Shown here in pieces: positions 506-63,750 of a DNA stretch of 64,000 nucleotides. Numbering within the stretch: position 1 is the first letter of the stretch; the number at the start of each line of letters is the position of its first letter. This DNA is from Asterias amurensis (Eukaryota; Echinodermata; Asteroidea; Forcipulatida; Asteriidae). The DNA lies in the NCBI RefSeq assembly GCF_032118995.1, contig NC_092651.1, positions 7,976,785 to 8,040,784 on the forward strand, in the 5' to 3' direction. The position numbers and the translations under genes were made by a program. Under the pieces are notes generated by a model that did no database searches, had not been told where the DNA came from, and saw nothing but the letters and a program-made list of their open reading frames with translations.

Positions 506-520
506 CACCTTTAAAAGTTA

Positions 521-7287: not shown

Positions 7288-7727
7288 CTAACCTCGGCAG
7301 TTTGTATTTTCAACACAGCTTGTCAAGAGTTCCCCGTACAGCGGAGAGATGAAGACCAGGGAATAATATACGTTCCGTTCCTTTTTGGGGTTGATGAACT
7401 GGGCACAGATGAATTTAGCATCTTGACAGGTATGGCCGGTCAAGTCAAAGCCATAGCTGACGTCGTTGAAGACGACTTTACCCTCCATTTCCGAAGAAGG
7501 CCGTTCTCTTTCAGGCAAAGCTTTCTGCATGACGGTGCCAGACAGCTCGTTCTGCCCGTTTTCACTGCTAGACATCCACACCCTCACTGTCCACACCCCT
7601 CGATCGTGTTTATACCATGGAATTGCCTCCGAATACTTCACTTTCAGCTGCAGAGCAATCTCATTTGCTTTGCCTTGTTTTATGGAAGCTTGTGGCACCT
7701 CTGGATTAATCTCATTCACACTAACAT
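7288..7727 (-). CDS. Gene A exon 4: C-terminal domain and stop
   Basis: The terminal exon of 440 bp enters in phase 1 (acceptor CCATACAG) and ends at a TAG. It encodes about 146 residues with no family I can name: a Trp/Val-rich stretch (GVWTVRVWMSSSENG), then TGHTCQDAKFICAQF, and a tail with two more cysteines (LLTSC and NTNC). Four cysteines and alternating hydrophobic residues fit a small extracellular beta domain, which is inference. I saw no clear AATAAA signal shortly after the stop. Confidence 0.8.
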
Positions 7728-10700
7728 CTGTATGGTATTAGGAATGTAAATTATGTTTTAGTTCCTCTTCTCAACACTCTTAAAAACACACGGGTCAGAT
7801 TACTGATCCACTTCTGGGTCTGGTTAACCAAGAAACTGGTTTAAATAAAGACTACAGGATTATGCATCATTTTGACCCACTTTTAATGGCTTTTTATATA
7901 AAATAAAAAACTCGGGTCAGAAGAGATTATTTTGAGGTCAGACTGACAGGAAACTGGTAAAAAAGAAGAGATTCTGACTAATATTCTGCGTAATTTTGAT
8001 TCACTTGTTGGGACCCGGTTAGGGTTAATTGATCTGGCAGCTGCCTCGATGCATTTGTTGCTTTTTTTAAAAGTTCCGTTTTGGGGCGGAAATTTTTCTT
8101 TTTGTTAAAAAGAAATTAAAAGAATCCGGGGCATCCGTCCTCCCCCACCCCGCCCCAAGGTTACAAAAACGACAACGATCACGACGCAAAGAGAATACAT
8201 TCTATTGGTTGAATGAGCGTGGGCGTAGTCTGCGTGGAGTAATTCAACCAATAGAATGCGTTCTCTGTCTGGTGTGTTCGTTATCGTTTTCGTTATCACT
8301 GCAGTGTAGCGTTCCAAAGCATTCAATTGTAAGCACGGCCATTCTTTGTATAGTAAAGAATGTCATTAGATAAAGCGCCTTTTTAAGGAACATTACAGAA
8401 TTGGTTTTGCTAACAAAACTTTGAGATCGATCGGCCATCTGGGTCACGAGAAAATAGTGAAAACCGATTACACACTTTGCATGACATTGGTAAAAAAAAT
8501 GAATAAAACGTTCACTGAGCGATAAACTTCAAACGCAAGGTTCAACTATTTATTTCTCATCGAATTATTATGACATTTCAGGCAGAAATATCTCAACGGA
8601 TGTTTTCAACTATCATCATCATTAGTAGACCGTGTAAGTTTGATGTTAATCTGCTTAAATGTTAGAGATGACTTACTGTAGCCGCAAATCTTGCAGCATT
8701 CCCCTTCAATTCTGATTCTTTGTCTGCAACCAAGTGGTGGACATGTAAGATACTGACAACTCAAAGTGGAATTATCACAGTCGCAGTACGAACAGTCATT
8801 CAGCGCCACCTTTCGCTCACCATGACGTATAATTTGGTCATCGTACATACAGGAAAGCTCACGTGGGACCACATCTACAAAAGAAAGGTTAAACGAAAAA
8901 CTCAATTCAACAAAGCTTTGTACTACTATGAGGTTGTTTTTGAGGTGTCAACAGTTTGTTTATAAAAATACACTCTGAAAACTAAGACATACATGGTAAT
9001 TCATCATTGGACATCCCCATCGGTTTGTACAGCGAATGTCAACTTTGCTATTTCGATATTGGACATTCAATATGATTTTGTGCAGCAAATGTCAACTTTT
9101 TCGATGTTGGACATTCAATATGAGTTTGTACAGCAAATGTCAACTTTCCTATTTCGATATTGGACATTCAATATGATTTTGTGCAGCAAATGTCAACTTT
9201 GCTATTTCGATGTTGGACATTCAATATGAGTTTGTACAGCAAATGTCAACTTTGCTATTTCGATATTGGACATTCAATATGATTTTGTGCAGCAAATGTC
9301 AACTTTGCTATTTCGATATTGGACATTCAATATGAGTTTGTACAGCAAATGTCAACTTTGCTATTTCGATATTGGACATTCAATATGAGTTTGTTCAGCA
9401 AATATCAACTTTGCTATTTCGATATTGGACATTCAATATGAGTTTGTACAGCAAATGTCAACTTTGCTATTTCGATATTGGACATCCCCATCGGTTTGTA
9501 CAGCGAATGTCAACTTTGCTATTTCGATGTTGGTCAACTTTGCTATTTCGATGTTGGACATTCAATATAAGTTTGTACAGCAAATGTCAACTTTCGATAT
9601 TGGACATTCAATATGTATTTGTGCAGCAAATGTCAACTTTGCTATTTCGATGTTGTACATTCAATATAAGTTTGTACAGCAAATGTCAACTTTGCTATTT
9701 CGATGTTGGACATTCAATATGATTTTGTGCAGCAAATGTCAACTTTGCTATTTCGATATTGGACATTCAATATGAGTTTGTACAGCAAATGTCAACTTTG
9801 CTATTTCGATATTGGACAATCAATATGATTTTCTGCAGCAAATGTCAACTTTGCTATTTCGTTATTGGACATTCAATGTGATTTTCTGCAGCAAATGTCA
9901 ACTTTGCTATTTCGTTATTGGACATTCAATATGAGTTTGTACAGCAAATGTCAACTTTGCTATTTCGATATTGGACATTCAATATGATTTTCTGCAGCAA
10001 ATGTAAACTTTGCTATTTCGTTATTGGACATTCAATATGAGTTTGTACAGCAAATGTCAACTTTGCTATTTCGATATTGGACATTCAATATGGTTTTCAG
10101 CAGCAAATGTCAACTTTGCTATTTCGTTATTGGATATTCAATATGAGTTTGTACAGCAAATGTCAACTTTGCTATTTCGTTATTGGACATTCAATATGAG
10201 TTTGTACAGCAAATGTCAACTTTGCTATTTCGATATTGGACATTCAATATGATTTTCTGCAGCAAATGTAAACTTTGCTATTTCGTTATTGGACATTCAA
10301 TATGAGTTTGTACAGCAAATGTCAACTTTGCTATTTCGATATTGGACATTCAATATGGTTTTCAGCAGCAAATGTCAACTTTGCTATTTCGTTATTGGAT
10401 ATTCAATATGAGTTTGTACAGCAAATGTCAACTTTGCTATTTCGTTATTGGACATTCAATATGAGTTTGTACAGCAAATGTCAACTTTGCTATTTCGTTA
10501 TTAGACATTCGATATGAGTCTGACAGCAAATGGCAACTTTCCTATTTCGACATTGGACATCCAATGTGAGTTTGTACAGTGCTTTCAATACCATCCAGCC
10601 ACATCTGCTTATTACAACATTAATTACAACATTAATTATAACTTAAATGTCAATCCTACAATATCCCATGGATCTATATCTTTCTGTTAAATCGATGCCA

Positions 10701-13700
10701 GCAGGTCAAAATTAACTCCACCATTTCATCCATTCAGTACACCAATACGGGAGGCGTACTTTTTTCCTAGGACATACGTTGGCAATTAACATAAAATGGG
10801 TGTGTTTTTGCCCGAAAAACACTCTCGCGCATGCACGAGCTTTAGTGGTGACCGCAAGGGACCTTGGGCCACTGGTGGTGGTATGTGGAATGAAAATAGT
10901 TGTGGTAAATAAAGGGGAACCACACAACCTGCTTTTCTTCTACTACTACGCTTCACACAATGGTGTACAGGTTGTGATGAACCAGTCTACCTCCTCCTCC
11001 ATTGTCTCACCATGGAGATATATGGTCTATTTTTAAACTGGGCACATTTGGTAAATATTGTTGAAGACCAGTATTTTCACTTGATTTGGTAATTATTGTC
11101 GAGGACAGTTTTTTCACTTGATGTATCCCAACTTGCATAAGATAACAAACCTTTGAAAAAAACACACTATTGTGGTTGCATATTGTGTGTGCTCCAGATG
11201 CATACGTGCTGTTTGTAATGCAGTGTACTATTAAATTTCATTAAAAAAAAAAATTAGCGACCACAACCGTTCATTATGACCGTCTGTCTATTTTCATAAT
11301 TACCCTCCCTCCCCCTCCCAACCATATCCAAACGTATTTTATCGGGCAATCAAGACTTGGCAGTGAAAGCAAGCGCGACGCATTTTATGGACAAAAGGTA
11401 GAGTTGTACAAATACGCAGTTTTACATGGTACATGGTACTAAATATGATGTACATTGTACATGTAACATGAACGCGTGTATGCGTGTATGTGTACATGTT
11501 TAATAATATGCATGAGTGTATTTCCACAACTATTATTACGTCGAAGTACGCATGTGCATGGGAAAATGTATAGTACGCTCATTTATGTAAATTGCCCACG
11601 TTCGTCCTAGGAAAAAAAATACGCATACGGGAGCCCCCCAGGGGTGTGTCATGTCACCTCTTTTGTACTAAATACCATATGATTTCATAAAATATGCAGA
11701 TGATACAACCGCTGTGGGCTTTATGGATAGCAAACGTGATTTTAAAGGAACACGTTACCTTGGATCGTTCGAGTTGGTCTTTGAAAAGCGTTTGTAACCG
11801 TTTGTTGTGAAATGCAAATGGTTCGGATTTAAAGGAACACGTTGCCTTGGATCAGTCGAGTTGGTCTTTGAAAAGCATTTGTAACCGTTTGTTATAAAAT
11901 ATATATGGTTAGAAAGATGTTTAAAAAGTATAGAATACAATGATCCACACACATTTGCCTCGAAATTGCGTGGTTTTCCTTTTACTTTGCGAACTAACAC
12001 AGTCGGCCATTTATGGGAGTCAACATTTTGACTCCCATAAATGGCCGACCGTGTTTGTCGACGAGATAAAAGGAAAACAACGCAATTTAGAGTGATACTT
12101 GTGTGGATCATTATATTCTACTTTTAAAATATCTCTCTAATCATATGCATTCTATAACAATTGATTACATACGCTTTTCAAAGACCAACTCGACCGATCC
12201 AAGGCAACGTGTTCCTTTAAAGTAGAATATGATCCACACAAACATGCCTCGAAATTGCACGGTTTTCCTTTCATGTCGCGAAGAAACAAGGTCGGTTATT
12301 TTATGGAGTCAAAATTTTGGCTTCACAAAATGACAAACGGTTTCACACACTTTTGATCAAAGACCAAATCGACCGATCCAAAGCAACGTGTTCCTAAAAC
12401 AAGCTACAACAACGCTTATTTTACTCTCTAAATAGTGATCGTGCTATTTTACAATATTGTACTACAAATCTGTACACCAAAGTTCTGTTTAACTTGTGTT
12501 AATGGGAACATGAGGGCTCAAGATAATGTTTAATTGGGTAGAGTATTCAAACATGCCAACAAAGTTATCGGTATTCAGCAGGCTGTACCGGGTGATTTAT
12601 ATAAATCTCTCCTTTTAAATAAAATCACATTTATTAGTTACGACAGCTCTCACCCACTTCACTTGAAATTCCAGAAAAAGCCTTAGAAGCAATCGTTTTC
12701 TTCAAAGAGCCATCAAAACCCGATAGCGTTCATTTGTTCCGTCTACCATTTCCCGGGAAATGGCTCCGTAGTGGGAAAAGGGCTTTCGAAACTAGGCTAT
12801 TAACATTGACTTACTTTTAGGACACGTCTTGCAGCATTCCCCATCAAGTTTCGTTCTACTGCTGGGATCGCAGGGTAGTTCTTGTGGACATGACTCAATC
12901 TGGCAACTCAAAGTGGAATTATCGCAGGTGCAGACTGTGCAGTCATTTGGCCTCAAAAAATCACCATGTATGTAAATTTCGTAAGAGCGGTCACCAGGGA
13001 GCTTTGCAAAACATGGAAGATAATTAAGGACACCTACAAAAATGTTAAGAAAAGATACATACAAAGACTATTCATCAAAGCTTCGAGGTGGTTTTGTTGT
13101 GTCAAAAGTTTTATCATTACACCACGAATAAAAATTATTCAAACAAAATCCCTAATTCAGGGTCTCTGCTTTAACCCGTAGTTGGCAAATGGAAACAATA
13201 TAAAGATGTTTGAAGCTTTGCATGGTGTAAAATAGAGAAGAATTAGCTATAAATATGAGTAAAACTGCTGGTACAACCATGTAAGCTTGAGGGAGTGTTG
13301 GCTCTGAATAGAGCCGATTTTGGTCTCGACGTTTCGAACAGTTTACTCTGCTCGTCTTCGGAAGAAAAATTCTCTTTTCTTCTGAAGACGAGCCCAGTAT
13401 GCTTTATTCTTAAAAAATGAAGTTGTCTACAAGGCAAAGTGTTTCTTTAAAGGCAGTGGACACTGTTGGTAATTCCGAAAAATAGTTATTAGCATAAAAC
13501 CCTACTTGGTAACGAGTAATGGGGAGAGGTTGGTAGTATAAAACATTGTGAGAAACGGCTCCCTCTAAAGTGGAGTAGTTTTCAAGAAAGAAGTAATTTC
13601 CACGAATTTGTTTTCGAGACCTCAGATTTGGAGTTTGAGGTCTCGAAATCAAGCATCGGAAAGCACACAACTTCGTGTGACAAGGGTGTTTTTTCCTTTC

Positions 13701-14801
13701 ATTGTTATCTCGCAACTTTGACGACCGATTGAGTTACCAATAGAGCCCAGTGTCTTTAAAATAATGTATATTAATATTCAACAAACTAACATTTGAAAAT
13801 TTCAAAACGTGGTCGCGCCGAAAATCTGGAATAGGAATATATCAGAATCTGAGAAAAATTTCCGCGTAGGAACGCTTCTCAGATTCAAATGTTAGGGTGG
13901 TTAGGGTTAGGGTTAGGGTTAAAACTGACCACATTACTTCAAAGTGAAATGTTTCTCAAATTGGTTTATACTATCGAAAGCTGCTGTAGATTTCTAACTA
14001 ATAAGTTCTTATTGCAATTAATATTAAGAGTGATTATCAAATGTATACCTTCCCTTCAATGAAGTCATAGTTCTCATAACAACCACACATTGTCCTATAC
14101 AAATCAGTTTTAAAAGTATATTCATAAAATAAGTATAATAAAATAAGTATTGTGTTAATATCTCACTTTGAAGTATTTTTACTTATGTAAAGTACTCGTA
14201 TTATACAGTACTTGCTATTCGGCATTCGGTTATTTGATTAGTTTGTACCTGGAAACTTTAATCGTTATCAAAGAATGAAGTATGTTCTTGGCTACTGTAC
14301 CAGTTGGACACTCTGGTAGTCGGCAGTAGCCTTTTTTTTAAATAAGATGTCAGAATATCGGGCCCAACGAAAACCGAACCGCTGAAAACATTTCCCGACC
14401 TTTGCCGACGTCATGTTGCCCCTATACGTTGTGACCCAAAGGGGTAGGGCCTAAAACGTCATATAGACCTTTATCACGGTGTGGCCATCTTAATTTTACA
14501 TCATTCCAAATAATTGTATACCAAACTGAGGCTGGACAAAATAATAGTCTGGTGCTATGTTTACCCAATGGAGCATTCATTACTGGGAACATGACCAAGA
14601 TGGTGACAGCGTGATAAATAGTACTATGGTGTTATCTTATCTTTATGCTAGATTCATAACACAATTATGACGTTTACCTGTATACGATAACGATGACGAT
14701 GACGAGTATGATTCGTCTTCTGCCAATCCTTCAGCAGCCAAACAGCAAGCTACAGCAATAGATAAGACCAAGAGGCCTCGACATCCTACAAAAACAAACA
14801 T
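7288..14801 (-). CDS. Secreted two-VWC-module protein, gene A (four exons)
   Basis: Four minus-strand exons, 14801-14678, 13033-12815, 8874-8677 and 7727-7288, join in frame with phase-1 introns throughout and end at a TAG. The product is about 326 residues: a signal peptide, a short Ser-rich linker, two VWC modules of ten cysteines each, and a C-terminal domain of about 146 residues that I do not recognise. VWC modules are extracellular and in many families bind BMP/TGF-beta ligands or matrix proteins; whether this one does is unknown. There is no transmembrane segment, so secretion is inferred. Intron 2 holds a 53-bp minisatellite and several foldback MITEs; intron 1 holds a MITE and telomere-like repeats. 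A near copy (gene C) and a fragment (gene B) lie further along the window. Confidence 0.85.
8163..8297. mobile_element. Foldback element in gene A intron 3
   Basis: Left arm ATTCTATTGGTTGAAT pairs exactly with ATTCAACCAATAGAAT; outer arms carry CGACAACGATCACGACG and CGTTATCGTTTTCG. The truncated unit has lost one arm; unit 2 keeps it at about 56,073-56,208. Confidence 0.65.
8677..8874 (-). CDS. Gene A exon 3: second VWC module (type A)
   Basis: This is a phase 1-1 exon of 198 bp with acceptor TTTTGTAG and donor CTACA|GTAAGT. It encodes ten cysteines with CSYCDC, DNSTLSCQ and CCKIC. It is nearly unchanged between the three copies in the window, unlike exon 2. The shared DNSTLSCQ block is also alike at the DNA level in exon 2, which suggests one VWC exon arose from the other. 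Confidence 0.9.
9003..10579 (+). repeat. 53-bp minisatellite, gene A intron 2
   Basis: About 30 units of 53 bp built on TTTGCTATTTCGATATTGGA, then CATTCAATATGAG and TTTGTACAGCAAATGTCAAC. Variants (TGATTTTGTG, TAAGTTTGT, TGGTTTTCAG, CCCCATCGG) recur in blocks. As 53 is not a multiple of three, all frames are used in turn and long open frames appear by accident. Confidence 0.9.
10745..11635. mobile_element. Inverted-repeat element in gene A intron 2
   Basis: Arms TTCCTAGGACATACGTTGGC and GCCCACGTTCGTCCTAGGAA (reverse complements with differences) bound about 880 bp. There is no coding region. The matching copy lies at about 58,803-59,694. Confidence 0.45.
11741..12395. mobile_element. Nested TTTAAAGGAACACGTTGCC MITEs, gene A intron 2
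   Basis: A half copy (11,741-11,827), a complete palindrome (11,828-12,222) centred on GGGAGTCAACATTTTGACTC, and a trailing half (12,223-12,395). The layout suggests one copy inserted into another. Confidence 0.75.
12745..12785. mobile_element. Solo end of the 1.85-kb element family
   Basis: The sequence CATTTCCCGGGAAATGGCTC followed by GTAGTGGGAAAAGGGCT is one terminus of the family at 15,474, standing alone 30 bp from exon 2 of gene A. Confidence 0.6.
12815..13033 (-). CDS. Gene A exon 2: first VWC module (type B)
   Basis: This is a phase 1-1 exon of 219 bp, with acceptor TTTGTAG and donor AAAA|GTAAGT. It has ten cysteines in VWC order, with CTVCTC in the middle, DNSTLSCQ, and CCKTC at the end. 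The N-terminal half (about LNYLPCFAKLPG to FLRPNDC) differs strongly from the matching exon of gene C, while the C-terminal half is almost the same. Confidence 0.88.
13200..13412 (+). mobile_element. Penelope-like terminal fragment, unit 1
   Basis: Has GCTGGTACAACCATGTAA, GGCTCTGAATAGAGCC, CTCGACGTTTCGAACAG and CTGCTCGTCTTCGG, the same layout as the 20-kb cluster. It is longer at its left end than the unit 2 copy. Confidence 0.5.
13446..13760 (+). mobile_element. GGACACTATTGGTAATT-family MITE, gene A intron 1
   Basis: Starts TTTAAAGGCAGTGGACACTG and ends CCCAGTGTCTTTAAA; about 80 bp of the 3' part is missing compared with the copy at 37,018. Confidence 0.7.
13892..13921 (+). repeat. Interstitial telomere-like repeat, unit 1
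   Basis: GTTAGGGTGGTTAGGGTTAG with two further TTAGGG copies, in gene A intron 1. The matching site in unit 2 (about 61,790-61,820) has one unit changed to TTAGAG. Confidence 0.7.
14464..14620. mobile_element. Short MITE, TAGACCTTTATCACGGTGTGG ends, near gene A exon 1
   Basis: Ends TAGACCTTTATCACGGTGTG and ACCAAGATGGTGACAGCGTG with GATAAAT are imperfect inverted repeats around GGCCATCTTG. Confidence 0.6.
14678..14801 (-). CDS. Gene A exon 1: start and signal peptide
   Basis: The exon encodes 41 codons plus one base. It starts MFVFVGCRGLLVLSIAVACC, a hydrophobic stretch ending near LAAEGLA, which is a good signal peptidase context, followed by EDES and a run of serines. The donor reads CAG|GTAAAC, leaving phase 1. 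The ATG was chosen because it starts the only frame with a signal peptide and the phase matches the next exon; a second ATG nearby opens a frame that stops early. Confidence 0.85.
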
Positions 14802-14884
14802 GACAATAACACCCAATACTTCTTAGTTACTTATTGGAAGAACAACACCACTCAGTCAGGCAAACTTGTTCCAGCACCAGGCTC

Positions 14885-15372: not shown

Positions 15373-15473
15373 AGTTGGGGTGGGTTGGACAGACATTGTT
15401 TTGCATGAAGAAGAGAAAACAGTGAGAGAAGCAAAGGGAACTGATGAAACAAACATTCAAACATAACATAATA

Positions 15474-46191: not shown

Positions 46192-46521
46192 ACTGGGCAC
46201 AGATGAATTTAGCATCTTGACAGGTATGGCCGGTCAAGTCAAAGCCATAGCTGACGTCGTTGAAGACGACTTTACCCTCCATTTCCGAAGAAGGCCGTTC
46301 TCTTTCAGGCAAAGCTTTCTGCATGACGGTGCCAGACAGCTCGTTCTGCCCGTTTTCACTGCTAGACATCCACACCCTCACTGTCCATATTCCTCGATGG
46401 TGCTGTGTCCATGGAACTGCCTCCGAATACTTCACTTTCAGCTGCAGAGCAATCTCATTTGCTTTGCCTTGTTTTATGGAAGCTTGTGGCACCTCTGGAT
46501 TAATCTCATTCACACTAACAT
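46151..46521 (-). pseudogene. Gene B chimeric C-terminal exon
   Basis: The exon shares the acceptor and about 110 residues with the other two copies (IPW is VPW here and KHDRGVW is QHHRGIW). It then runs into unrelated DNA and ends CHITTGCGSNQQM. Two of the four domain cysteines and the normal tail are lost. Confidence 0.7.
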
Positions 46522-47150
46522 CTGTATGGTATTAGGAATGTAAATTATGTTTTAGTTCCTCTTCTCAACACTCTTAAAAACACACGGGTCAGATTACTGA
46601 TCCACTTCTGGGTCTGGTTAACCAAGAAACTGGTTTAAATAAAGACTATAGGATTATGCATCATTTTGACCCACTTTTAATGGCTTTTTATATAAAATAA
46701 AAAACTCGGGTCAGAAGAGATTATTTTGAGGTCAGACTGACAGGAAACTGGTAAAAAAGAAGAGATTCTGACTAATATTCTGCGTAATTTTGATTCACTT
46801 GTTGGGACCCGGTTAGGGTTAATTGATCCGGCAGCTGCCTCGATGCATTTGTTGCCTTTTTTAAACGTTCCGTTTTTGGGCGGAAATTTGTCTTTTTGTT
46901 AAAAAGAAATAAAAAAATCCGGGGCATCCGTCCTCCCCCACCCCACCCCAAGGTTATAAAAACGACAACGATCACGACGCAAAGAGACTACTTCAATGGA
47001 TGTTTTCAGCTATCATCATCATTAGACCGTGTAAGTTTGATGTTAATCTGTGATCTTCACCATTTTGTTTTCTTACCAATTTTTTAACGTTCCGTTAAAC
47101 TTATGTAGTGAAAAACACTTTTGAAAGCTTAAATGTTAGAGATGACTTAC

Positions 47151-47345
47151 TGTAGCCGCAAATCTTGCAGCATTCCCCTTCAATTTCAATTCTTTGTCTG
47201 CAATCAAGTGGTGGACATGTAAGATACTGACAACTCAAAGTGGAATTATCACAGTCGCAGTACGAACAGTCATTCAGCGCCTTTCGCTCACCATGACGTA
47301 TAATTTGGTCATCGTACATACAGGAAAGCTCACGTGGGACCACAT
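47151..47345 (-). pseudogene. Gene B type A VWC exon
   Basis: The 195-bp phase 1-1 exon lacks one Val codon found in genes A and C (KALND for KVALND) and has Asp for Gly and Glu for Arg near CRQRI. All ten cysteines and both splice sites remain. Confidence 0.75.
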
Positions 47346-47467
47346 CTACAAAGGAAAGGTTAAACGAAAAACTCAATTCAACAAAGCTTTGTACTACTAT
47401 GAGGTTGTTTTTGAGGTGTCAACAGTTTGTTTATAAAAATACACTCTGAAAACTAAGACATACATGG

Positions 47468-48470: not shown

Positions 48471-48472
48471 TA

Positions 48473-49999: not shown

Positions 50000-51754
50000 T
50001 TTCAATTCAATTCAATTCAATTCAATTTATTTATTTCATCACAAATTACAAGTAAAAAGTGAAAATTGTTTTCCCTGTGTGCACTAAAAAGATTCAAGTT
50101 AGATACTTATAGAAAGACAAACAAACATTACATTTTAAAAATACAGAAATTAATTACAAAAATTTAGTTAAGCAATAAATAGCCTATTTCAAATTTTAAA
50201 AAGAGAGAAACGTTATCAAAAACTCACCATCACTGATTAAAATGGAAAGCAACAACTAAAGTTACCTTATAAAAAATGAGTTAAAAAGATGAATAGCACT
50301 GGGTAAAAAAATAGTCTGAACCGGTTTGTGCGAGTAGAGAGAGAACGGTACCTTCCTGATGGGAGAATGTGAATGAATGAGTGAAGTGGGTGAGTTTGCC
50401 TGGGTTATAACTTTCAGTTTATTTAAATACTGTTTGTCTAGGATTTCTCTCATGGGTTTTACTTCGAAACCTATTATCTTGCTGGCAACCTTGGTGATAC
50501 GATCAATTTTCTTCTGATTTTTCACAGTTAGATTATAATACCAAACAATACAGCTAAAAGTAATGACTGACTGAATAATACTCTGGTAAAACAGGTGTAA
50601 AATTGAATCACGGACATTGAAAGATCGTAATTTCCTTAGAAAATAAAGCCTCTGATTTGCCTTGGCACACATTTTTTGAGTATTTTTGTTCCAATCCAGT
50701 TAGTTATCTATAATTGTTCCAAGATATTTATATTCACTGACGATTTCTACTTCGTCATTCTTTATACAAACCGTATGAATACCTTGACGGATCTTACGAA
50801 AATCAAAAACAAGTTCTTTGGTTTGGGTTATATTCAAAGTGAGAAAGTTGTCATCACACCACTGGACAAAGCGCTCTATTTCAAGCCTATAATTAGTCTC
50901 ATTGTTTTTGAGGATCAGACCAGTCAAGGAAGTGTCATCGGCGTACTTAACAAGAGAGCAAGATTCACTGTTACTATTAAAGTCACTGGTGTATAAAGTA
51001 AAGAGGACTGGTGATAGTACACAACCCTGTGGCGCTCCAGTATTTGTGAAGATCAAGTCAGAGAAAGAAGTTCTGATCTTTACACGTTGGGGTCTAGCTC
51101 TCATGAAGTCACTGATCCACAGGCACAAGTGTGGATTGACGTGCATGTTCTGTAGCTTCTGAACCAACTTATGCGGTTGTAGTGTATTGAAGGCAGATGA
51201 GAAATAAAAAAAAAGTGTTCTAACGTAAGTTTTAGGTTGATCAAGATGACACTGGATATTGTGTAATAGTGTTGTTACAGCGTCATCCACCCCTCGCTTT
51301 GTACAATATGCAAACTGGCAAGGATCGGCAAAGATCTTGGTATGTGTCAGGAGAAGTTCTTTCACAATGCTCTCAAAACATTTCATTACAATGGCGGTAA
51401 GAGCTACTGGCCGATACTCATTCCAGGCTGAAGGTTTGGCTATTTTTGGAATGGGGACAACATTTGACGATTTCCATAGTTTGGGAACGTGGTGAGCATC
51501 AAGTGATCATTGAAACATTTCTCGAAAAACAGGTGACAGTTCTTTGTAGCACATTTTTAGAGTCTTTCCCGAGATCCCATCCGGGCCCTTTGCTTTGTTG
51601 GCTTTAAATTTCTTTAATGCGTTCTCAACGGTTTGCAAGCTGAGTTGGATTGCGTTTTCTGTGCTTGCATTGGATTCCAAAGTTCTGCAGATGTCAGTAT
51701 TTAAATCGCTAAATTCAGCAACATCAAAGCGACCGAAGAAAACATTCAGCTGAC
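50000..51754 (-). mobile_element. LINE fragment, CR1 group (Rex1/Babar-like), unit 2
   Basis: The same insertion as at 2,070, duplicated with the unit. The longest frame (228 codons, 51386-50700) keeps GAPQGCVLSPVLFTLYTSDF and the YADD catalytic box; a stop then separates it from a 136-codon 3' frame. It is a dead fragment lacking the endonuclease region. Confidence 0.85.
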
Positions 51755-51972
51755 CCCCCATAGTTCACTGTTATCCATCCCATATAAAATAGAGTCCTTT
51801 TTGAGAAATTCAGTAATATTTACAAGTCTCTATTCTCAGATAAACTTGTCTCAAATGCCACTATAGACCTCTATGATGGTCTAGCCATCTTGAATTTTCC
51901 CCATTGATATCAATCTTACCAAACCGAGGCTGGAAGATCCCCGGGCGAGCTTTACAACATGGTGACGTCGTT

Positions 51973-52273
51973 TTTAAAGGAACACGTTGCCTTGGATCGG
52001 TCGAGTTGGTCTTTGAAAAGCGTTCTGTAACCGTTTGTTTTAAAATCGGTATGGTTAGAAAGATGTTGTGAAAGTAGAATACAGAGAATTGTTTTGACTC
52101 CAATAAATGGCCGACCGTGTTATTCGACGAGGTAAAACAAAAACCGTACAATGTTTAGTGATACTTGTGTGGATCACTTTTAAAACATCTTTCTAACCAT
52201 ATGCATTTCATAACAAACGCCTCAAACGCTTTTTGAAGACCAACTCGTCCGATCCAAGGCAGTGTTCCTTTAA
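51973..52273. mobile_element. Palindromic TTTAAAGGAACACGTTGCC MITE, unit 2
   Basis: Counterpart of the copy at 4,044. Confidence 0.75.
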
Positions 52274-52530
52274 GCGAAAAAAAGGAGCAAGTCTCAAAGT
52301 ATTACGAATCGGTCATGTCAATAACAATTAATGAGCAAATACTAAAACCGCCCAGTCTCTTTGATATGAAGGGACTGTGTCAATGACTGATATGTGAGAG
52401 TCTTAAATGGCATAAGTGAATAACAAGTGTGCAGGGGGAAATCTGTCCGCCGGGGATTTCGCCCCCAGCCCCCATGTGGGAACATGGGCTGGAGGAGGAG
52501 GGTTCAAAAGAGGGCGCTAACAGAGCGCTA

Positions 52531-52786
52531 ACAATGGAATAAAAAACACCCCTGGCACACAAACTTGTGTGCTTTCAGATGCTTGATTTCGGGACCTCGA
52601 AATCTAAATTTGGGGTCTCGAAATCAAATTCGTGGAAAATTCCTTCTATTCGAAAACTATGTTCCTTCAGAGGGAGCAGTTTTTCACAATGTTGTTTACC
52701 ATCAACAGCTCTCCATTGCATGTTACCAAGTAAGTTTTTATGCTAACAATTTGTTTAAGTGATACCAATAGCGTCCAGTGCCCTTG
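52531..52786 (-). mobile_element. GGACACTATTGGTAATT-family MITE, partial, unit 2
   Basis: Counterpart of the copy at 4,600. Confidence 0.65.
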
Positions 52787-53150
52787 AACATGATGGGCCT
52801 GTGGTATGTTCTTGTGGGGTATGGTGGGGTGGGGCGGGGCGGTCATCTACTTGAAACAATACAACAACACGACAACATTTTCAATTTAAAGGATACAATT
52901 CATGCAGTACTTGTTTTAATAGCAACAACACATAATAACAGCACAGCACATAATACGATCATTATATAGGCCGAAAGTCAGCACAATGGATTGCCATACA
53001 AAGTCGTGACTACAACAAATTACATTGTACAATTACCGAGATAGATGATACTCTCATGGGGTGTTTTGAATTTGACTCAAATTTGATCAAATTGTCTGGA
53101 TCTGGGCCAATTTGACCCAGATGTTTTTAGAGTGTAGTGATGTGTGATAC

Positions 53151-53520
53151 TTAAAGGATTCGGGTACTTTTTGTAACACAAAACAGAATGTCCACAGATT
53201 TACATTAAACTTCCACCATTTGAAGATAATGACAGTAGAAAGCGTACCTTGAAATATTACTTGCTGAGGTGGTGTAGTTTGGGGGAAATTAGTAAAACAA
53301 TGTCACGAAAACGTTTATTTCATGCTAAAATAATTTTCGTCTCATGATCACTGAGACGAAAATTATGTTCATGACCCTGTTTTACTCACTTTTAAAAACT
53401 ACAGCCCCTCAGCACGTAGTATTTTCAGGGAAGCTTTCTACTATCATTATTTTCAAACCGTGTGAGTTCAAATCTGTGACATTGGTTTTTTTGTCCTACA
53501 AAAGTTACTGGACCCTTTAA
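53151..53520. mobile_element. Palindromic TTAAAGGATTCGGGTAC MITE, unit 2
   Basis: Counterpart of the copy at 5,223. Confidence 0.75.
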
Positions 53521-54727
53521 TCCAGGATCACTCACATTAACTATAAATGTTATATAAACTCCATTGAATGTTCAGGTCATCGGTTTATTTTATTATCTTT
53601 CAGCAATTAGCAAAGCTCACTAGAACTACAATATTTTGATGTTAACGTCCTCTGCACAGCACTATAGAAAATTCAACATCTGAAACTGCTACTCATCATA
53701 GACTTTGTTTGCCTGCTGGTCATAATAAACCTGAGTTTCCTAAATGGAAATTAGAGCTGCAAATTGTTTGTCAATTTTTCGAGTTTTTGCATGATAATAA
53801 CGCTCAAAACTTTGAGGCATTCATAGACCTTTCTAATGCAACGTCACAGCTCGAGTTTTTGCAATCAATACAAAGCCATCAATGCAAAACAAATCCAGTT
53901 TGTTTACAAAGTAATAACAACATGTTGGAAACAAAACAAAACAACCAGTTATGGAATGTATTTTTATTTACTTGGAAGCTTACAGAAAATGTTGGATTTG
54001 GTTTAATGGTATGCAGTCGTCCTTCCCAACCAGCTCGGTTTGTTTATGGAAAGTTGAACTCCACCTGCAGTTGAACTGTTTCTGTTTCCAAGTTGGAGAT
54101 CAGTGGTGATGCTGTGTAAAGAGAAAAGAAATACAACATTCTGCTTTTTAACAAATTGAATAAATAACCATTGGTTCCAGTTATAAGGGCCCTTGGCTAC
54201 TATTAAACACCATGGTGATCGATTCTTTGAACAGTGTTAAATGCAATGGAAATGGAAGGGGGTACATTAGCAATGGGAGACCTTGGAACGCTACGTGGCA
54301 GCAGACTTACACGGTAAATTTTCATTGTTGTAGTTCTGAGCATGCGCACGTTAAAGGAAACAACGGATTTACATGGTAAGTCTGCTGCCACCTAGCGTCC
54401 TAAAATGGTTTAAAAAGTACACGACGTGCTTCCCCAGAGAGTTTTATCCTTGCGGATAAAGACAGGTACCTGCTACCATGCTGCTAGGTCCAGTGTTTTC
54501 ATTGGATAATATGACCATTAGATAAATGCAGTGAACAAAAGCTACCGCACCTTGGTTGGTTTTGATTGGGTCTGAGCTTACCTCGGACGACCAATCGAAA
54601 CACAGAAATGGAAAGGTTACTTTCGGTCGTCTGCATCTGTGTCCACGTATGTGTATTGTACACAGTATATGCATGTGCATGTACTTGCAATATTGTAAAG
54701 TTTGTGCAGAATTTGACCAAAGATATT

Positions 54728-54862
54728 TGGGTGCGTTCGTTTAGCTTCCCCGTGGCGTTTTCTTTTTCCAGGACGAACGTGTGCAGATAATTACCCACGT
54801 TTGTCCTGGAAAAAACCCGCCACACATGGGGGTCGACCTAGGGAAGCTAAACGAACGCACCC
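54728..54862. mobile_element. Foldback MITE, GGGTGCGTTCGTTTAGC ends, unit 2
   Basis: Same element as at 6,804, with a short deletion in its left arm. Confidence 0.8.
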
Positions 54863-55197
54863 TTTATGTGAAATGAATTTAGGTCAAAGGTGAATGTACA
54901 GACGCACGCCGGCTGGAGGCCGGCCGGTCTCTGGCGTTATTCACGAGCCTCGAAGTGTGACGTCAGATGTTCAGGCTACAGAGAGGTTTCTTTTGTGAGT
55001 CCTTTAGTAGGAGGGGTGATGGGTTCAGACTTTTACTTTCGTAAGGTCTTTAGATTGCAAGACTATATTGGACAAGTTTTTTTTCCATTATAAGGGCCTT
55101 TATGAATTGGTCATCTCTTCCCTAGATAGCTATTTTCTGATTATGCTCAGTTTATAAAAAAGAATGAAAACTAACCTTAGCAGTGGTGATGTCCAAG

Positions 55198-55637
55198 CTA
55201 ACCTCGGCAGTTTGTATTTTCAACACAGCTTGTCAAGAGTTCCCCGTACAGCGGAGAGATGAAGACCAGGGAATAATATACGTTCCGTTCCTTTTTGGGG
55301 TTGATGAACTGGGCACAGATGAATTTAGCATCTTGACAGGTATGGCCGGTCAAGTCAAAACCATAGCTGACGTCGTTGAAGACGACTTTACCCTCCATTT
55401 CCGAAGAAGGCCGTTCTCTTTCATGCAAAGCTTTCTGCATGACGGTGCCAGACAGCTCGTTCTGCCCGTTTTCACTGCTAGACATCCACACCCTCACTGT
55501 CCACACCCCTCGATCGTGTTTATTCCATGGAATTGCCTCCGAATACTTCACTTTCAGCTGCAGAGCAATCTCATTTGCTTTGCCTTGTTTTATGGAAGCT
55601 TGTGGCACCTCTGGATTAATCTCATTCACACTAACAT
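55198..55637 (-). CDS. Gene C exon 4: C-terminal domain and stop
   Basis: The 440-bp terminal exon matches gene A exon 4 with a few substitutions (for example Tyr to Asn after AIPW, and Pro to His before ERERPSS). It has the same four cysteines and the same TAG stop. Confidence 0.8.
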
Positions 55638-58600
55638 CTGTATGGTATTAGGAATGTAAATTATGTTTTAGTTCCTCTTCTCAACACTCTTAAAAACACA
55701 CGGGTCAGATTACTGATCCACTTCTGGGTCTGGTTAACCAAGAAACTGGTTTAAATAAAGACTACAGGATTATGCATCATTTTGACCCACTTTTAATGGC
55801 TTTTTATATAAAATAAAAAACTCGGGTCAGAAGAGATTATTTTGAGGTCAGACTGACAGGTAGACTGGTAAAAAAGAAGAGAGTCTGACTAATATTCTGC
55901 GTAATTTTGATTCACTTGTTGGGACCCGGTTAGGGTTAATTGATCCGGCAGCTGCCTCAATGCATTTGTTGCCTTTTTTAAACGTTCCGTTTTTGGGCGG
56001 AAATTTTTCTTTTTGTTAAAAAGAAATAAAAAAAATCCGGGGCATCCGTCCTCCCCCACCCCGCCCCAAGGTTACAAAAACGACAACGATCACGACGCAA
56101 AGAGAATACATTCTATTGGTTGAATGAGCGTGGGCGTAGTCTGCGTGGAGTAATTCAACCAATAGAATGCGTTCTCTGTCTGGTGTGTTCGTTATCGTTT
56201 TCGTTATCACTGCAGTGTAGCGTTCCAAAGCATTCAATTGTAAGCACGGCCATTCTTTGTATAGTAAAGAATGTCATTAGATAAAGCGCCTTTTTAAGGA
56301 ACATTACAGAATTGGTTTTGCTAACAAAACTTTGAGATCGATCGGCCATCTGGGTCACGAGAAAATAGTGAAAACCGATTACACACTTTGCATGACATTG
56401 GTAAAAAAAAATGAATAAAACGTTCACTGAGCGATAAACTTCAAACGCAAGGTTCAACTATTTATTTCTCATCGAATTATTATGACATTTCAGGCAGAAA
56501 TATCTCAACGGATGTTTTCAACTATCATCATCATTAGTAGACCGTGTAAGTTTGATGTTAATCTGCTTAAATGTTAGAGATGACTTACTGTAGCCGCAAA
56601 TCTTGCAGCATTCCCCTTCAATTCTGATTCTTTGTCTGCAACCAAGTGGTGGACATGTAAGATACTGACAACTCAAAGTGGAATTATCACAGTCGCAGTA
56701 CGAACAGTCATTCAGTGCCACCTTTCGCTCACCATGACGTATAATTTGGTCATCGTACATACAGGAAAGCTCACGTGGGACCACATCTACAAAGGAAAGG
56801 TTAAACGAAAAACTCAATTCAACAAAGCTTTGTACTACTATGAGGTTGTTTTTGAGGTGTCAACAGTTTGTTTATAAAAATACACTCTGAAAACTAAGAC
56901 ATACATGGTAATTCATCATTGGACATCCCCATCGGTTTGTACAGCGAATGTCAACTTTGCTGTTTCGACATTGGGCATCCCCATCGGTTTGTACAGCGAA
57001 TGTCAACTTTGCTGTTTCGATGTTGGACATCTCCATCGGTTTGTACAGCGAATGTCAACTTTGCTATTTCGATGTTGGTCAACTTTGCTATTTCGATGTT
57101 GGTCAACTTTGCTATTTCGATGTTGGACATTCAATATAAGTTTGTACAGCAAATGTCAACTTTGCTATTTCGATATTGGACATTCAATATGATTTTGTGC
57201 AGCAAATGTCAACTTTTTCGATGTTGGACATTCAATATAAGTTTGTACAGCAAATGTCAACTTTGCTATTTCGATATTGGACATTCAATATGAGTTTGTA
57301 CAGCAAATGTCAACTTTTCTATTTCGATATTGGACATCCACATCGGTTTGTACAGCGAATGTCAACTTTGCTATTTCGATATTGGACATTCAATATGATT
57401 TTGTGCAGCAAATGTCAACTTTTTCGATGTTGGACATTCAATATGAGTTTGTACAGCAAATGTCAACTTTCCTATTTCGATATTGGACATTCAATATGAT
57501 TTTGTGCAGCAAATGTCAACTTTGCTATTTCGATGTTGGACATTCAATATGAGTTTGTACAGCAAATGTCAACTTTGCTATTTCGATATTGGACATTCAA
57601 TATGATTTTGTGCAGCAAATGTCAACTTTGCTATTTCGATATTGGACATTCAATATGAGTTTGTACAGCAAATGTCAACTTTGCTATTTCGATATTGGAC
57701 ATTCAATACGAGTTTGTTCAGCAAATATCAACTTTGCTATTTCGATATTGGACATTCAATATGAGTTTGTACAGCAAATGTCAACTTTGCTATTTCGATA
57801 TTGGACATCCCCATCGGTTTGTACAGCGAATGTCAACTTTGCTATTTCGATGTTGGTCAACTTTGCTATTTCGATGTTGGACATTCAATATAAGTTTGTA
57901 CAGCAAATGTCAACTTTCGATATTGGACATTCAATATGTATTTGTGCAGCAAATGTCAACTTTGCTATTTCGATGTTGTACATTCAATATAAGTTTGTAC
58001 AGCAAATGTCAACTTTGCTATTTCGATGTTGGACATTCAATATGATTTTGTGCAGCAAATGTCAACTTTGCTATTTCGATATTGGACATTCAATATGAGT
58101 TTGTACAGCAAATGTCAACTTTGCTATTTCGATATTGGACAATCAATATGATTTTCTGCAGCAAATGTCAACTTTGCTATTTCGTTATTGGACATTTAAT
58201 GTGATTTTCTGCAGCAAATGTCAACTTTGCTATTTCGTTATTGGACATTCAATATGAGTTTGTACAGCAAATGTCAACTTTGCTATTTCGATATTGGACA
58301 TTCAATATGATTTTCTGCAGCAAATGTAAACTTTGCTATTTCGTTATTGGACATTCAATATGAGTTTGTACAGCAAATGTCAACTTTGCTATTTCGATAT
58401 TGGACATTCAATATGGTTTTCAGCAGCAAATGTCAACTTTGCTATTTCGTTATTGGATATTCAATATGAGTTTGTACAGCAAATGTCAACTTTGCTATTT
58501 CGTTATTGGACATTCAATATGAGTTTGTACAGCAAATGTCAACTTTGCTATTTCGTTATTAGACATTCGATATGAGTCTGACAGCAAATGGCAACTTTCC

Positions 58601-61600
58601 TATTTCGACATTGGACATCCAATGTGAGTTTGTACAGTGCTTTCAATACCATCCAGCCACATCTGCTTATTACAACATTAATTACAACATTAATTATAAC
58701 TTAAATGTCAATCCTACAATATCCCATGGATCTATATCTTTCTGTTAAATCGATGCCAGCAGGTCAAAATTAACTCCACCATTTCATCCATTCAGTACAC
58801 CAATACGGGAGGCGTACTTTTTTCCTAGGACATACGTTGGCAATTAACATAAAATGGGTGTGTTTTTGCCCGAAAAACACTCTCGCGCATGCACGAGCTT
58901 TAGTGGTGACCGCAAGGGACCTTGGGCCACTGGTGGTGGTATGTGGAATGAAAATAGTTGTGGTAAATAAAGGGGAACCACACAACCTGCTTTTCTTCTA
59001 CTACTACGCTTCACACAATGGTGTACAGGTTGTGATGAACCAGTCTACCTCCTCCTCCATTGTCTCACCATGGAGATATATGGTCTATTTTTAAACTGGG
59101 CACATTTGGTAATTATTGTTGAAGACCAGTATTTTCACTTGATTTGGTAATTATTGTTGAGGACAGTTTTTTCACTTGATGTATCCCAACTTGCATAAGA
59201 TAACAAACCTTTGAAAAAAACACACTATTGTGGTTGCATAATTGTGTGTGCTCCAGATGCATATGTGCTGTTTGTAATGCAGTGTACTATTAAATTTCAT
59301 TAAAAAAAAAAAATTAGCGACCACAACCGTTCATTATGACCGTCTGTCTATTTTCATAATTACCCTCCCTCCCCCTCCCAACCATATCCAAACGTATTTT
59401 ATCGGGCAATCAAGACTTGGCAGTGAAAGCAAGCGCGACGCATTTTATGGACAAAAGGTAGAGTTGTACAAATACGCAGTTTTACATGGTACATGGTACT
59501 AAATATGATGTACATTGTACATGTAACATGAACACGTGTATGCGTGTATGTGTACATGTTTAATAATATGCATGAGTGTATTTCCACAACTATTATTACG
59601 TCGAAGTACGCATGTGCATGGGAAAATGTATAGTACGCTCATTTATGTAAATTGCCCACGTTCGTCCTAGGAAAAAAAAATACGCATACGGGAGCCCCCC
59701 AGGGGTGTGTCATGTCACCTCTTTTGTACTAAATACCATATGATTTCATAAAATATGCAGATGATACAACCGCTGTGGGCTTTATGGATAGCAAACGTGA
59801 CTTTAAAGGAACACGTTACCTTGGATCGTTCGAGTTGGTCTTTGAAAAGCGTTTGTAACCGTTTGTTGTGAAATGCAAATGGTTCGGATTTAAAGGAACA
59901 CGTTGCCTTGGATCGGTCGAGTTGGTCTTTGAAAAGCATTTGTAACCGTTTGTTATAAAATATATATGGTTAGAAAGATGTTTAAAAAGTATAGAATACA
60001 ATGATCCACACACATTTGCCTCGAAATTGCGTGGTTTTCCTTTTACTTTGCGAACTAACACAGTCGGCCATTTATGGGAGTCAACATTTTGACTCCCATA
60101 AATGGCCGACCGTGTTTGTCGACGAGATAAAAGGAAAACCACGCAATTTAGAGTGATACTTGTGTGGATCATTATATTCTACTTTTAAAATATCTCTCTA
60201 ATCATATGCATTCTATAACAATTGGTTACATACGCTTTTCAAAGACCAACTCGACCGATCCAAGGCAACGTGTTCCTTTAAAGTAGAATATGATCCACAC
60301 AAACATGCCTCGAAATTGCACGGTTTTCCTTTCATGTCGCGAAGAAACAAGGTCGGTTATTTTATGGAGTCAAAATTTTGGCTTCACGAAATGACAAACG
60401 GTTTCACACGCTTTTGTTTAAAGACCAAATCGACCGATCCAAGGCAACGTGTTCCTAAAACAAGCTACAACAACGCTTATTTTACTCTCTAAATTTTGAT
60501 CGTGCTATTTTACAATATTGTACTACAAATCTGTACACCAAAGTTCTGTTTAACTTGTATTAATGGGAACATGAGGGCTCAAGATAATGTTTAATTGGGT
60601 AGAGTATTCAAACATGCCAACAAAGTTATCGGAATTCAGCAGGCTGTACCGGGTGATTTATATAAATCTCTCCTTTTAAATAAAATCACATTTATTAGTT
60701 ACGACAGCTCTCACCCACTTCACTTGAAATTCCAGAAAAAGCCTTAGAAGCAATCGTTTTCTTCAAAGAGCCAAACCCGATAGCGTTCATTTGTTCCGGC
60801 TACCATTTCCCGGGAAATGGCTCCGTAGTGGGAAAAGGGCTTTCGAAACTAGGCTATTAACATTGACTTACTTTTAGGACACGTCTTGCAGCATTCACCA
60901 TCAAGTTTCGTTCTACTGCTGGGACCGCAGGGTAGTTCTTGTGGACATGACTCTATCTGGCAACTCAAAGTGGAATTATCGCAGGTGCAGACTTTGCAGT
61001 CATTTAGCCTCATAAATGCACCATGGAGGTACATTCGGTAAGAGCGGTCACCAGGTCCAATACATGGAAGATCATTAGAGACACCTACAGAAATGTTAAG
61101 AAGAGATACATACAAAGACTATTCATTTGCTTTGAGGTGGTTTTTATTAGTAAAGTTGCTGGTACAACCATGTAATAGTTATCTTTTGAAGGAGTGTTGG
61201 CTCTGAATAGAGCCGATTTTGGTCTCGACGTTTCGAACAGTATACTCTGCTCGTCTTCGGAAGAAAAATTCTCTTTTCTTCTGAAGACGAGCCCAGTATG
61301 CTTTATTCTTAAAAAATGAAGTTGTCTACAAGGCAAAGTGTTTCTTTAAAGGCAGTGGACACTGTTGGTAATTCCGAAAAATAGTTATTAGCATAAAACC
61401 CTACTTGGTAACGAGTAATGGGGAGAGGTTGGTAGTATAAAACATTGCGAGAAACGGCTCCCTCTAAACTGGAGTAGTTTTCGAGAAAGAAGTAATTTTC
61501 AAGAATTTGTTTTCGAGACCTCAGATTTGGAGTTTGAGGTCTCGAAATCAAGCATCGGAAAGCACACAACTTCGTGTGACAAGGGTGTTTTTTTCCTTTC

Positions 61601-62730
61601 ATTGTTATCTCGCAACTTCGACGACCGATTGAGTTACCAATAGAGCCCAGTGTCTTTAAAATAAAGTATATTAATATTCAACAAACTAACATTTGAAAAT
61701 TTCAAAACGTGGTCGCGCCGAAAATCTGGAATAGGAATATATCAGAATCTGAGAAAAATTTCCGCGTAGGAACGCTTCTCAGATTCAAATGTTAGGGTGG
61801 TTAGAGTTAGGGTTAGGGTTAAAATTGACCACATTACTTCAAAGTGATGTTTCTCAAATTGCTTTATACTATCGAAAGCTGCTGTAGATTTCTAACTAAT
61901 AAGTTCTTATTGCAATTCATTTTAAGAGTGATTATCAAATGTATACCTTCTCTTCAATGAAGTCATAGTTCTCATAACAACTACACATTGTCCTATACAA
62001 ATCAGTTTCAGAAATATATTTATGTAGGCCCTATAGGCCTATATTAAAATAAGTATTCAAATGTGTTAATATCTCACTTTGGAGTATTTTTACTTTATAA
62101 AGTACTCGTATTACAGAGAACTTGCTATTCGGCATTCGGTTATCAGAATAGTTTGTACTTGGGCACTTTAATCGTTATCAAAGACTAAAGTATAATGTTC
62201 TTGGCTATACGGGACCAGTTGGCCACTCTAGTAGTCGGCAGTATTGTCTTTTTAATAAGATGTCAGAATATCGGCCCAGCTAACGTTGAGCCACTCGTTG
62301 AAAAACGACCTGCTGAAAACATTTCCCTACGTCATGTTGCCCCTATCGATGTGACCCAAAAATGAGTAGGCAGTCATATAGACTTTTATCACAGTGTGGC
62401 CATCTTGATTTTACTTCATTCCAAATTGTAACCAAACGGAGGCTGGACGAAACCATAGTCTGGTGCCATGTTTTGCGCAATGAATGTTAGCATTAATTAC
62501 TGTTATGGAAACAGGAAAAATGACCAAGATGGTGACAGCGTGATAAATAGTACTATGGTGTTATCTTATCTTTATGCTAGATTCATAACACAATTATGAC
62601 GTTTACCTGTATACGCTGACGATGACGATGACGAGTATGATTCGTCTTCTGCCAATCCTTCAGCAGCCAAACAGCAAGCTACAGCAATAGATAAGACCAA
62701 GAGGCCTCGACATCCTACAAAAACAAACAT
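55198..62730 (-). CDS. Secreted two-VWC-module protein, gene C (copy of gene A)
   Basis: Four minus-strand exons, 62730-62607, 61084-60872, 56786-56589 and 55637-55198, have the same phases and splice sites as gene A and no interruption. The product is about 324 residues: signal peptide, VWC type B, VWC type A and the unrecognised C-terminal domain. Exon 2 is 6 bp shorter than in gene A and has many replacement changes in its first half; exons 1, 3 and 4 differ by only a few residues. The minisatellite in intron 2 is longer than in unit 1. Both copies look intact, so both may be expressed. Confidence 0.85.
56589..56786 (-). CDS. Gene C exon 3: second VWC module (type A)
   Basis: The 198-bp phase 1-1 exon has the same length and encoded protein as gene A exon 3; the difference I noticed is silent. 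Acceptor and donor are conserved. Confidence 0.9.
56909..58637 (+). repeat. 53-bp minisatellite, gene C intron 2
   Basis: Same family as at 9,003 with about three more units, different at its left end (extra CCCCATCGG-type units and three tandem TTGGTCAACTTTGCTATTTC short units). Confidence 0.9.
58803..59694. mobile_element. Inverted-repeat element in gene C intron 2
   Basis: Counterpart of the element at 10,745. Confidence 0.45.
59802..60460. mobile_element. Nested TTTAAAGGAACACGTTGCC MITEs, gene C intron 2
   Basis: Same nested arrangement as at 11,741; the inner palindrome is 59,889-60,283. Confidence 0.75.
60802..60843. mobile_element. Solo end of the 1.85-kb element family, unit 2
   Basis: Counterpart of the solo end at 12,745, next to exon 2 of gene C. 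Confidence 0.6.
60872..61084 (-). CDS. Gene C exon 2: first VWC module (type B, divergent)
   Basis: The 213-bp phase 1-1 exon keeps all ten VWC cysteines. Compared with gene A, the first half reads SNDLPCIGPGDRSYRMYLHG, with changes at most non-cysteine positions and two residues missing. Most base changes in the exon alter the amino acid. Confidence 0.88.
61143..61315 (+). mobile_element. Penelope-like terminal fragment, unit 2
   Basis: Counterpart of the fragment at 13,200, with about 160 bp less of the flank that lies between it and exon 2 in unit 1. Confidence 0.5.
61346..61660 (+). mobile_element. GGACACTATTGGTAATT-family MITE, gene C intron 1
   Basis: Counterpart of the copy at 13,446. 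Confidence 0.7.
62379..62549. mobile_element. Short MITE, TAGACTTTTATCACAGTGTGG ends, near gene C exon 1
   Basis: Counterpart of the copy at 14,464. Confidence 0.6.
62607..62730 (-). CDS. Gene C exon 1: signal peptide
   Basis: The 124-bp exon has the same signal peptide as gene A and a slightly changed Ser-rich end (a Ser-Ala pair where gene A has Leu-Ser). The donor is again GTAAAC in phase 1. Confidence 0.85.
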
Positions 62731-62841
62731 GACAATAACACCCAATACTTCTTAGTTACTTATTGGAAGAACAACACCACTCAGTCAGGCAAACTTGTTC
62801 CAGCACCAGGCTCACTGAATCAGTAACTTGTTGCAGCTTGC

Positions 62842-62880
62842 TTATATAGCTTTGGTGTCAGCATTGAAATAACCAATAGG
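62842..62880 (-). promoter_or_regulatory. Gene C core promoter: TATA and CCAAT boxes
   Basis: TATATAA is read on the minus strand at 62848-62842 and an inverted CCAAT box at 62877-62873. Spacing is the same as upstream of gene A. Confidence 0.6.
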
Positions 62881-63058
62881 GTACCTCCAATAAGTAACTA
62901 CATTCCCGCATGGGGGACTATTAGCGCATCGGGTGAGTGGAACCTGATATTATGCTGACACTTGCTAAAAGTTTCAAGCTACATGACACACCACACCAAT
63001 TTCTCGGAACCTGTTTTTATGTTCTGATGACTGTAGCAGACCGTCGGTTCGATGATCT

Positions 63059-63306
63059 GGGCCCAATTTCATAGAGCTGCTATGAGCACAACAATTTGCT
63101 TAGCACGAAATTTCTTCCTTGATGAAAACAGGATTTCCAACCATATTTCCATTTGTCGCATAAATTGCTTGTTATTGGTATTCAGCTGTTGTTGTTTGCT
63201 GAACCTTAAAATCAACTGGAATTTTGGTTGGTAATCCTGTTTTATCAAGGAAGAAATTGCAGGCTAAGCAAATTTCTTTGCTAAGCAGCTCTATGAATTT
63301 GGGCCC
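63059..63306. mobile_element. GGGCCCAATTTCATA palindromic MITE, unit 2
   Basis: Counterpart of the copy at 15,130. Confidence 0.8.
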
Positions 63307-63750
63307 AGTTGGGGTGGGTTGGACAGACATTGTTTTGCATGAAGAAGAGAAAACAGTGAGAGAAGCAAAGGGAACTGATGAAACAAACATTCAAACATAA
63401 CATAATGATGCACCCCGTTGTGCAAATTGTTTACATTCAGCGCTGCAAGAACCCACCTATAGCTAATGTCATTTCACATAGCTAAGCGATTTGATGGTGT
63501 CGGCAGTGTAGCCATTCAGGGGCAGCATCTTTTCAATATTATGAGAAAATATAAATGTGCACCATTTTATTTTCCATAAAATGAAAGAGATGTGAAAGCC
63601 TAAATGCCTATATGCATTAAAAATGTTGCCTTTTATAATAATCAATCTGAAACCATAAAGAGAAGTTGAACCAGCGCACTTTGTACTTCAATACCCTTTG
63701 CCCGTTCTCCATCCTTGCCCCGTGCCTCGTGCAAACCCTCCTCCCCAATG

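Follow-up and report, generated by a model that had tools for sequence, protein, structure and literature searches.

Near-identical tandem genes of the sea star Asterias amurensis differ in the predicted Clip/subdomain-1 half of their first VWC domain

Peaks of divergence in duplicated genes that are otherwise kept alike by gene conversion have been treated as a sign of selection, the red and green opsins being an example, and the same source warns that gene-conversion patterns are open to misreading as positive selection (PMC3924837). A similar divergence peak in converted duplicates has been described from a copepod (PMC3728101). As regards the VWC domain, the closest described system is Crossveinless-2 (CV2), in whose VWC1 the N-terminal Clip and subdomain 1 (SD1), which starts from the first cysteine, are reported to bind BMP-2 whilst subdomain 2 (SD2) makes no contact (PMC6270503). 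Deletion of Clip and SD1 abolished BMP2 binding and left chordin binding in place, deletion of SD2 had the opposite effect, BMP2 binding being kept and chordin binding lost, and the substitution I21R in SD1 lowered the affinity for BMP2 40-fold (PMC2944808). In sea stars, a kielin/chordin-like protein of Acanthaster has been listed, with others, as most highly expressed in several places, the mouth and sensory tentacles included, and Sfp6, a footprint protein, has been described as similar to kielin/chordin-like proteins. A search of the literature, mostly of the non-subscription kind and covering broad topics in part, yielded no published description of a VWC family such as the one considered here.

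The window, that is the whole stretch of 64,000 nucleotides that was analysed (G000:C4:7976785-8040784), belongs to a genome assembly of 491,506,623 bases in 23 contigs. There are four intact copies of the gene on this contig (C4), designated Z, A, C and D, of which A and C lie inside the window. There are also two fragments: Y lies outside the window and B, probably a pseudogene, inside it, and exon 1 and exon 2 were found for neither. A search of the genome with the C-terminal exon yielded at least 43 matches with E up to 1, of which six fall on C4. All four intact genes are open from start to stop and encode 317-326 aa. Gene C, on the minus strand, is made up of four exons bounded by canonical splice sites (Table 1), and its protein consists of a signal peptide, two VWC domains (VWC1 and VWC2) and a C-terminal region of ~146 aa. 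Two versions of one long unit, ~48 kb apart (1-15472 and 47952-63406), make up much of the window. Y and B are 98.4-99.6% alike across their four longest stretches, and A and C are 91-97% alike across three main stretches. As B and C lie ~48-50 kb beyond Y and A and are their counterparts, it was considered whether A and C might be alleles placed in tandem by haplotype mis-assembly, but this is disfavoured since the 220-kb stretch is without any N. Intron 2 contains a minisatellite with a unit of ~53 bp (8993-10633 in A, 56906-58640 in C) that also aligns in D and Z and varies in length among copies; it was masked in the divergence and window comparisons, in C over 56930-58640. In intron 1, ~158 bp directly upstream of exon 2 (13096-13253) are present in A and D and absent from C and Z.

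Table 1. Features of genes A and C and of copy B, in positions of the window
Feature	Position	Strand	Remarks
Gene C exon 1, signal peptide and mature N-terminus	62607..62730	-	open frame, canonical donor
Gene C codons 23-41, variable between copies	62607-62664	-	mature part of exon 1
Gene C exon 2, whole (VWC1)	60872-61084	-	213 nt, canonical splice sites
Gene C exon 2 first half, variable part of VWC1 (predicted Clip/subdomain 1)	60993..61084	-	island of divergence
Gene C exon 2 second half, remainder of VWC1	60872..60992	-	near-constant
Gene C exon 3 (VWC2)	56589..56786	-	near-invariant; best Pfam VWC stretch
Gene C exon 4, C-terminal region	55198..55637	-	near-invariant; stop codon at end
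Gene C intron 1, first part	~61964..62541	-	non-coding pocket, ~13% off A, not homogenised
Gene A exon 1	14678..14801	-	
Gene A exon 2 (VWC1)	12815..13033	-	219 nt; variable half 12936-13033
Gene A exon 3 (VWC2)	8677..8874	-	
Gene A exon 4	7288..7727	-	
Copy B	46193..47346	-	exon 3-like 47152-47346; truncated exon 4-like 46193-46522

The assignment of the two domains rests on a Pfam search of the gene C protein (with a query lacking one exon 1 serine), in which VWC (PF00093) scored 56.2 bits vs a gathering cut-off of 27.6 over two stretches, the better being VWC2. It was the only family above its cut-off, Amnionless and CFC remaining below theirs. CV2 carries VWD/TIL domains besides VWC, and chordin carries CHRD; in the Pfam search no extra domain of the chordin or CV2 type appeared above cut-off beside VWC. 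There was no Pfam family above cut-off for the C-terminal region, no NCBIfam profile passed its cut-off either, and a PDB search with just the VWC1 exon had no match below E 0.13. Fold models were too poor for use, with a mean pLDDT of 41.8 for exon 4 and 39.7 for VWC1. Several copies of the C-terminal region, with identity down to ~25-30%, occur within loci L037 and L043-L050 on another chromosome (C5), which makes the region look, from its sequence, like an undescribed repeat domain.

A preliminary description of the window had put the number of differences between exon 2 of C and that of A at about 20, nearly all in the first half and nearly all changing the amino acid, and had stated that the cysteines were kept. 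The count is in fact 18 base differences and a 6-base in-frame indel, and 15 of the 18, together with the indel, fall within the first 92 bases of exon 2 of C, as against 3 in the remaining 121 aligned bases. The first part has 11 replacement codons and no synonymous one, and the second part has 1 replacement and 2 synonymous codons. A VWC domain has ten cysteines, and all ten of VWC1, with VWC spacing, are retained in the four intact copies as read from their translations. Exons 3 and 4 are near-identical between A and C, as had been claimed, with 1 base difference (synonymous) and 3 base differences (2 replacement, 1 synonymous) respectively. The further claim that most introns differ very little holds for the introns taken together (123/4779) but not for the first part of intron 1 of C, where 70 of 523 aligned bases differ from A (six table rows summed). 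The variable stretch extends into exon 1, as the mature residues directly after the signal peptide differ too, and the V region was defined as alignment codons 23-74, comprising the mature N-terminus and the first half of VWC1. For A and C it differs at 17/150 bases vs 123/4779 in introns (Fisher p = 8.3e-7). In terms of 100-site windows, however, the exon 2 island is merely joint third for this pair (16 differences vs 20, 17 and 16), because intron 1 of C holds equally divergent non-coding pockets. Runs of 304-472 bp that are identical in A and C adjoin diverged stretches, the longest, of 472 bp, ending at the minisatellite mask.

Comparison of all four intact copies revealed that the V region is 4-21% divergent in 6/6 pairs vs 0.4-2.6% in introns, an excess for which Fisher p values range from 6.5e-5 (A-D) to 6.2e-22 (D-Z), although the pairs are not independent. 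The signal-peptide part of exon 1 has 0/66 differences in all six pairs and the mature part has 2-5; the second half of exon 2 of C differs at 3/121 bases from A, 3/121 from D and 6/121 from Z; exon 3 differs at 1-2 per 198 bases in each pair and exon 4 at 0-4 per 440 bases. Among the 100-site windows of the gene body, the exon 2 island ranks first in three of the six pairs, namely Z vs A, D and C, with 22, 24 and 24 differences and next-best windows of 8, 8 and 20. For D-C it is second, below the pocket in intron 1 of C, and for A-D the highest window lies at the end of exon 1 instead of in exon 2. The introns of A and D are only 0.4% apart (20/4963), and their V regions differ at 6/144 bases, a ten-fold excess; all six differences are replacements in the DNA alignment, which also contains a 12-nt in-frame deletion, at the edge of which the codon alignment adds one silent change. 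In exon 2 the A-D replacements fall on codons 61, 63 and 66, at which A and C are also unlike. D has codon 23 in common with Z, and thus the A-D differences are not all new mutations. Comparisons with Z give pS of 0.21-0.27 and pN of 0.24-0.30 in the first half. Near the Z indel the alignment is uncertain. The pockets in intron 1 of C are themselves divergent, and therefore unhomogenised divergence survives outside coding sequence too.

Estimates of dN/dS on C4 gave omega in the V region of 2.6-9.5 with p 0.027-0.096 over four uncorrected tests, on data from one genome with only ~15-22 synonymous sites per half-exon. For A, D and C omega was 3.85 (p 0.038) and for the four copies 2.84 (p 0.027), with corresponding values outside V of 0.42 and 0.60 that are not significantly below 1. 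The changed codons in V between A and C comprise 13 replacement and 0 synonymous (p 0.016), and codon counts alone are not significant for A-D (p 0.46), A-Z (0.42) or D-Z (0.43). The comparison of ratios by exon that had been suggested at the outset therefore places exon 2 above exons 3 and 4 on C4, but at modest significance. Positive selection as the sole cause was rejected as too strong in view of the codon counts and of the omega on C5.

The second array, on C5, has 16 VWC exons matching exon 2, of which 13 are of 195 nt and 10 of these are distinct; the codon comparison was made without the 3 shorter exons, and the means and omega tests without the distant exon L042. Over 36 pairs of nine distinct exons the mean pN and pS were 0.153 and 0.235 in the first half and 0.029 and 0.037 in the second. 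First-half omega was 2.73 for six exons (p 0.14) and 1.02 for nine (p 0.97); second-half omega was 1.48 and 1.65 respectively, not different from 1, and thus no stronger constraint is seen on the second half. The introns of L052, L053 and L055 are barely alignable to those of L027, save for ~50 bases before the exon and ~ten after it. Yet the second half of each of these three is set apart from that of L027 by only 0-1 replacement and 1 silent change, and in the first half of this class synonymous divergence, too, is raised. The C5 array thus shows the mosaic again, with first halves retained and second halves homogenised, but not the excess of replacements. Locus L041 (C5:9819051-9819506) has an in-frame TAG in its C-terminal exon, and there is a further cluster of VWC-like exons at G000 C3:4.08-4.14 Mb.

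The island spans the mature N-terminus and the first cysteine and ends just beyond the second cysteine, codon 73, which we take to be Cys26 of CV2. Counting back from that cysteine, I21 of CV2 falls at the variable codon 68, which is S in Z, L in A, L in D and M in C, the correspondence being one of homology by cysteines and not by structure. By homology with CV2 VWC1, the island would be Clip and the first part of SD1, the predicted ligand-contact tip, and alignment codons 23-74 are likely to be the specificity-determining tip of an uncharacterised secreted protein family.

The explanation that we consider somewhat more probable than all others together is that gene conversion homogenises the arrays whilst selection keeps the Clip/subdomain-1 part of VWC1 different between copies. 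The tandem array of four intact secreted-protein genes would be undergoing concerted evolution, with gene conversion, or possibly recent duplication, keeping most introns, the signal peptide, VWC2, the second half of VWC1 and the C-terminus near-identical, and one coding island, the mature N-terminus plus the Clip/subdomain-1 half of VWC1, would resist. Within that island the copies differ by replacements and in-frame indels, the ten cysteines and the frame being kept, and most likely selection holds the paralogues apart at the tip, so that they would bind different partners via a common scaffold. Diversifying selection on a binding surface had been proposed in the preliminary description, and it gains from the location of the changes on the CV2-like ligand segment, from omega above 1 there and from the A-D replacements, but as an acceleration of replacement alone it has been weakened. 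Synonymous divergence is raised in Z and in L052, L053 and L055, and intron 1 of C is divergent, and therefore a large part of the signal resembles old divergence left unhomogenised.

An alternative is a neutral mosaic, in which patchy conversion missed the first half of exon 2 by chance, or because diverged tracts convert poorly, and replacements accumulated under relaxed constraint. Such a history would account for the similarly divergent non-coding pockets that escaped conversion in intron 1 of C, for pN being close to pS in the island of Z and for the C5 omega near unity over nine exons; it sits badly with an island that recurs in one and the same half-exon of Z, of C and of the C5 array on a different chromosome, with the ten-fold A-D excess despite such similar introns, with the intact cysteines and reading frame of all four copies and with omega above 1 in the set of A, D and C, and we regard it as somewhat unlikely. 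The abrupt change in divergence at the island, above all in Z vs A, could also have arisen if an unseen donor (an array member, another haplotype or a lost copy) had given a ready-made divergent half to C and Z, which share a few states (codons 63 and 87) and both lack the ~158-bp intron insertion. However, a search of the 491.5-Mb assembly in which only the best candidates were scored found no donor for the divergent half of C, the four matches being that half itself and the three other C4 copies, the best of these at 82%, so that the earlier suggestion of conversion from another array member is not supported within the assembly; the three A-D replacements in exon 2 are, moreover, separate point changes that are absent from C and Z and form no tract. 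An unseen donor is thus very unlikely.

More doubtful still is a classical arms race, in gamete recognition or immunity, with ongoing rapid replacement of the tip as the main force. The exclusively replacement changes in V between A and C, the repeated changes at codons 61, 63 and 66 and the secreted, cysteine-rich and tandem nature of the family are all what such a race would produce, but the significance of dN/dS is weak on C4 and absent on C5, and the literature, in which broad topics were covered in part, yielded no link of sea-star VWC proteins to gametes or immunity. A broader proposal, speculative and in our view unlikely, is that sea stars carry, in two or more tandem arrays, a germline-encoded VWC recognition repertoire, with a secreted scaffold made uniform by conversion and a selected hypervariable tip, serving pathogen or gamete recognition; the tip would then differ between copies and perhaps also between individuals.

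If conversion and selection do act together as preferred here, the arrays offer a natural test of how selection separates paralogues while gene conversion homogenises their surroundings. Published work includes the resequencing of whole genomes from 40 females and 40 males of Asterias amurensis (PMC11757944), and thus the question of paralogue differences is directly testable. Evolutionary patterns of this kind are already known, and what appears to be new is that in tandem sea-star arrays the variable tip is subdomain 1 of a VWC domain. Sea-star kielin/chordin-like proteins (Acanthaster oki.258.16 and Sfp6) are likewise secreted asteroid VWC proteins, a likeness of name and domain only, and the accessible parts of their descriptions mention no hypervariable segment. 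The proteins described here resemble CV2 (BMPER) in having a VWC domain whose variable stretch corresponds to the BMP-binding Clip and subdomain 1 of CV2 VWC1, but CV2 has five N-terminal VWC domains and further domains whereas the sea-star proteins combine two VWC domains with an unnamed C-terminal region and, unlike CV2, form a tandem family without a known ligand. With the primate L/M opsin pair the array shares near-identical tandem duplicates and an island of coding divergence at a functional site, which in the opsins is exon 5 and in the sea star is a predicted one. Judged by an opsin-type peak, V stands above introns in 6/6 pairs and the island is highest in 3/6, the intron pockets of C being higher in A-C and D-C. 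The sea-star array differs from the opsins in these pockets, in having three clearly different versions and a near-copy, D, in its in-frame indels and in the parallel second array, and its conversion and function are deduced from pattern.
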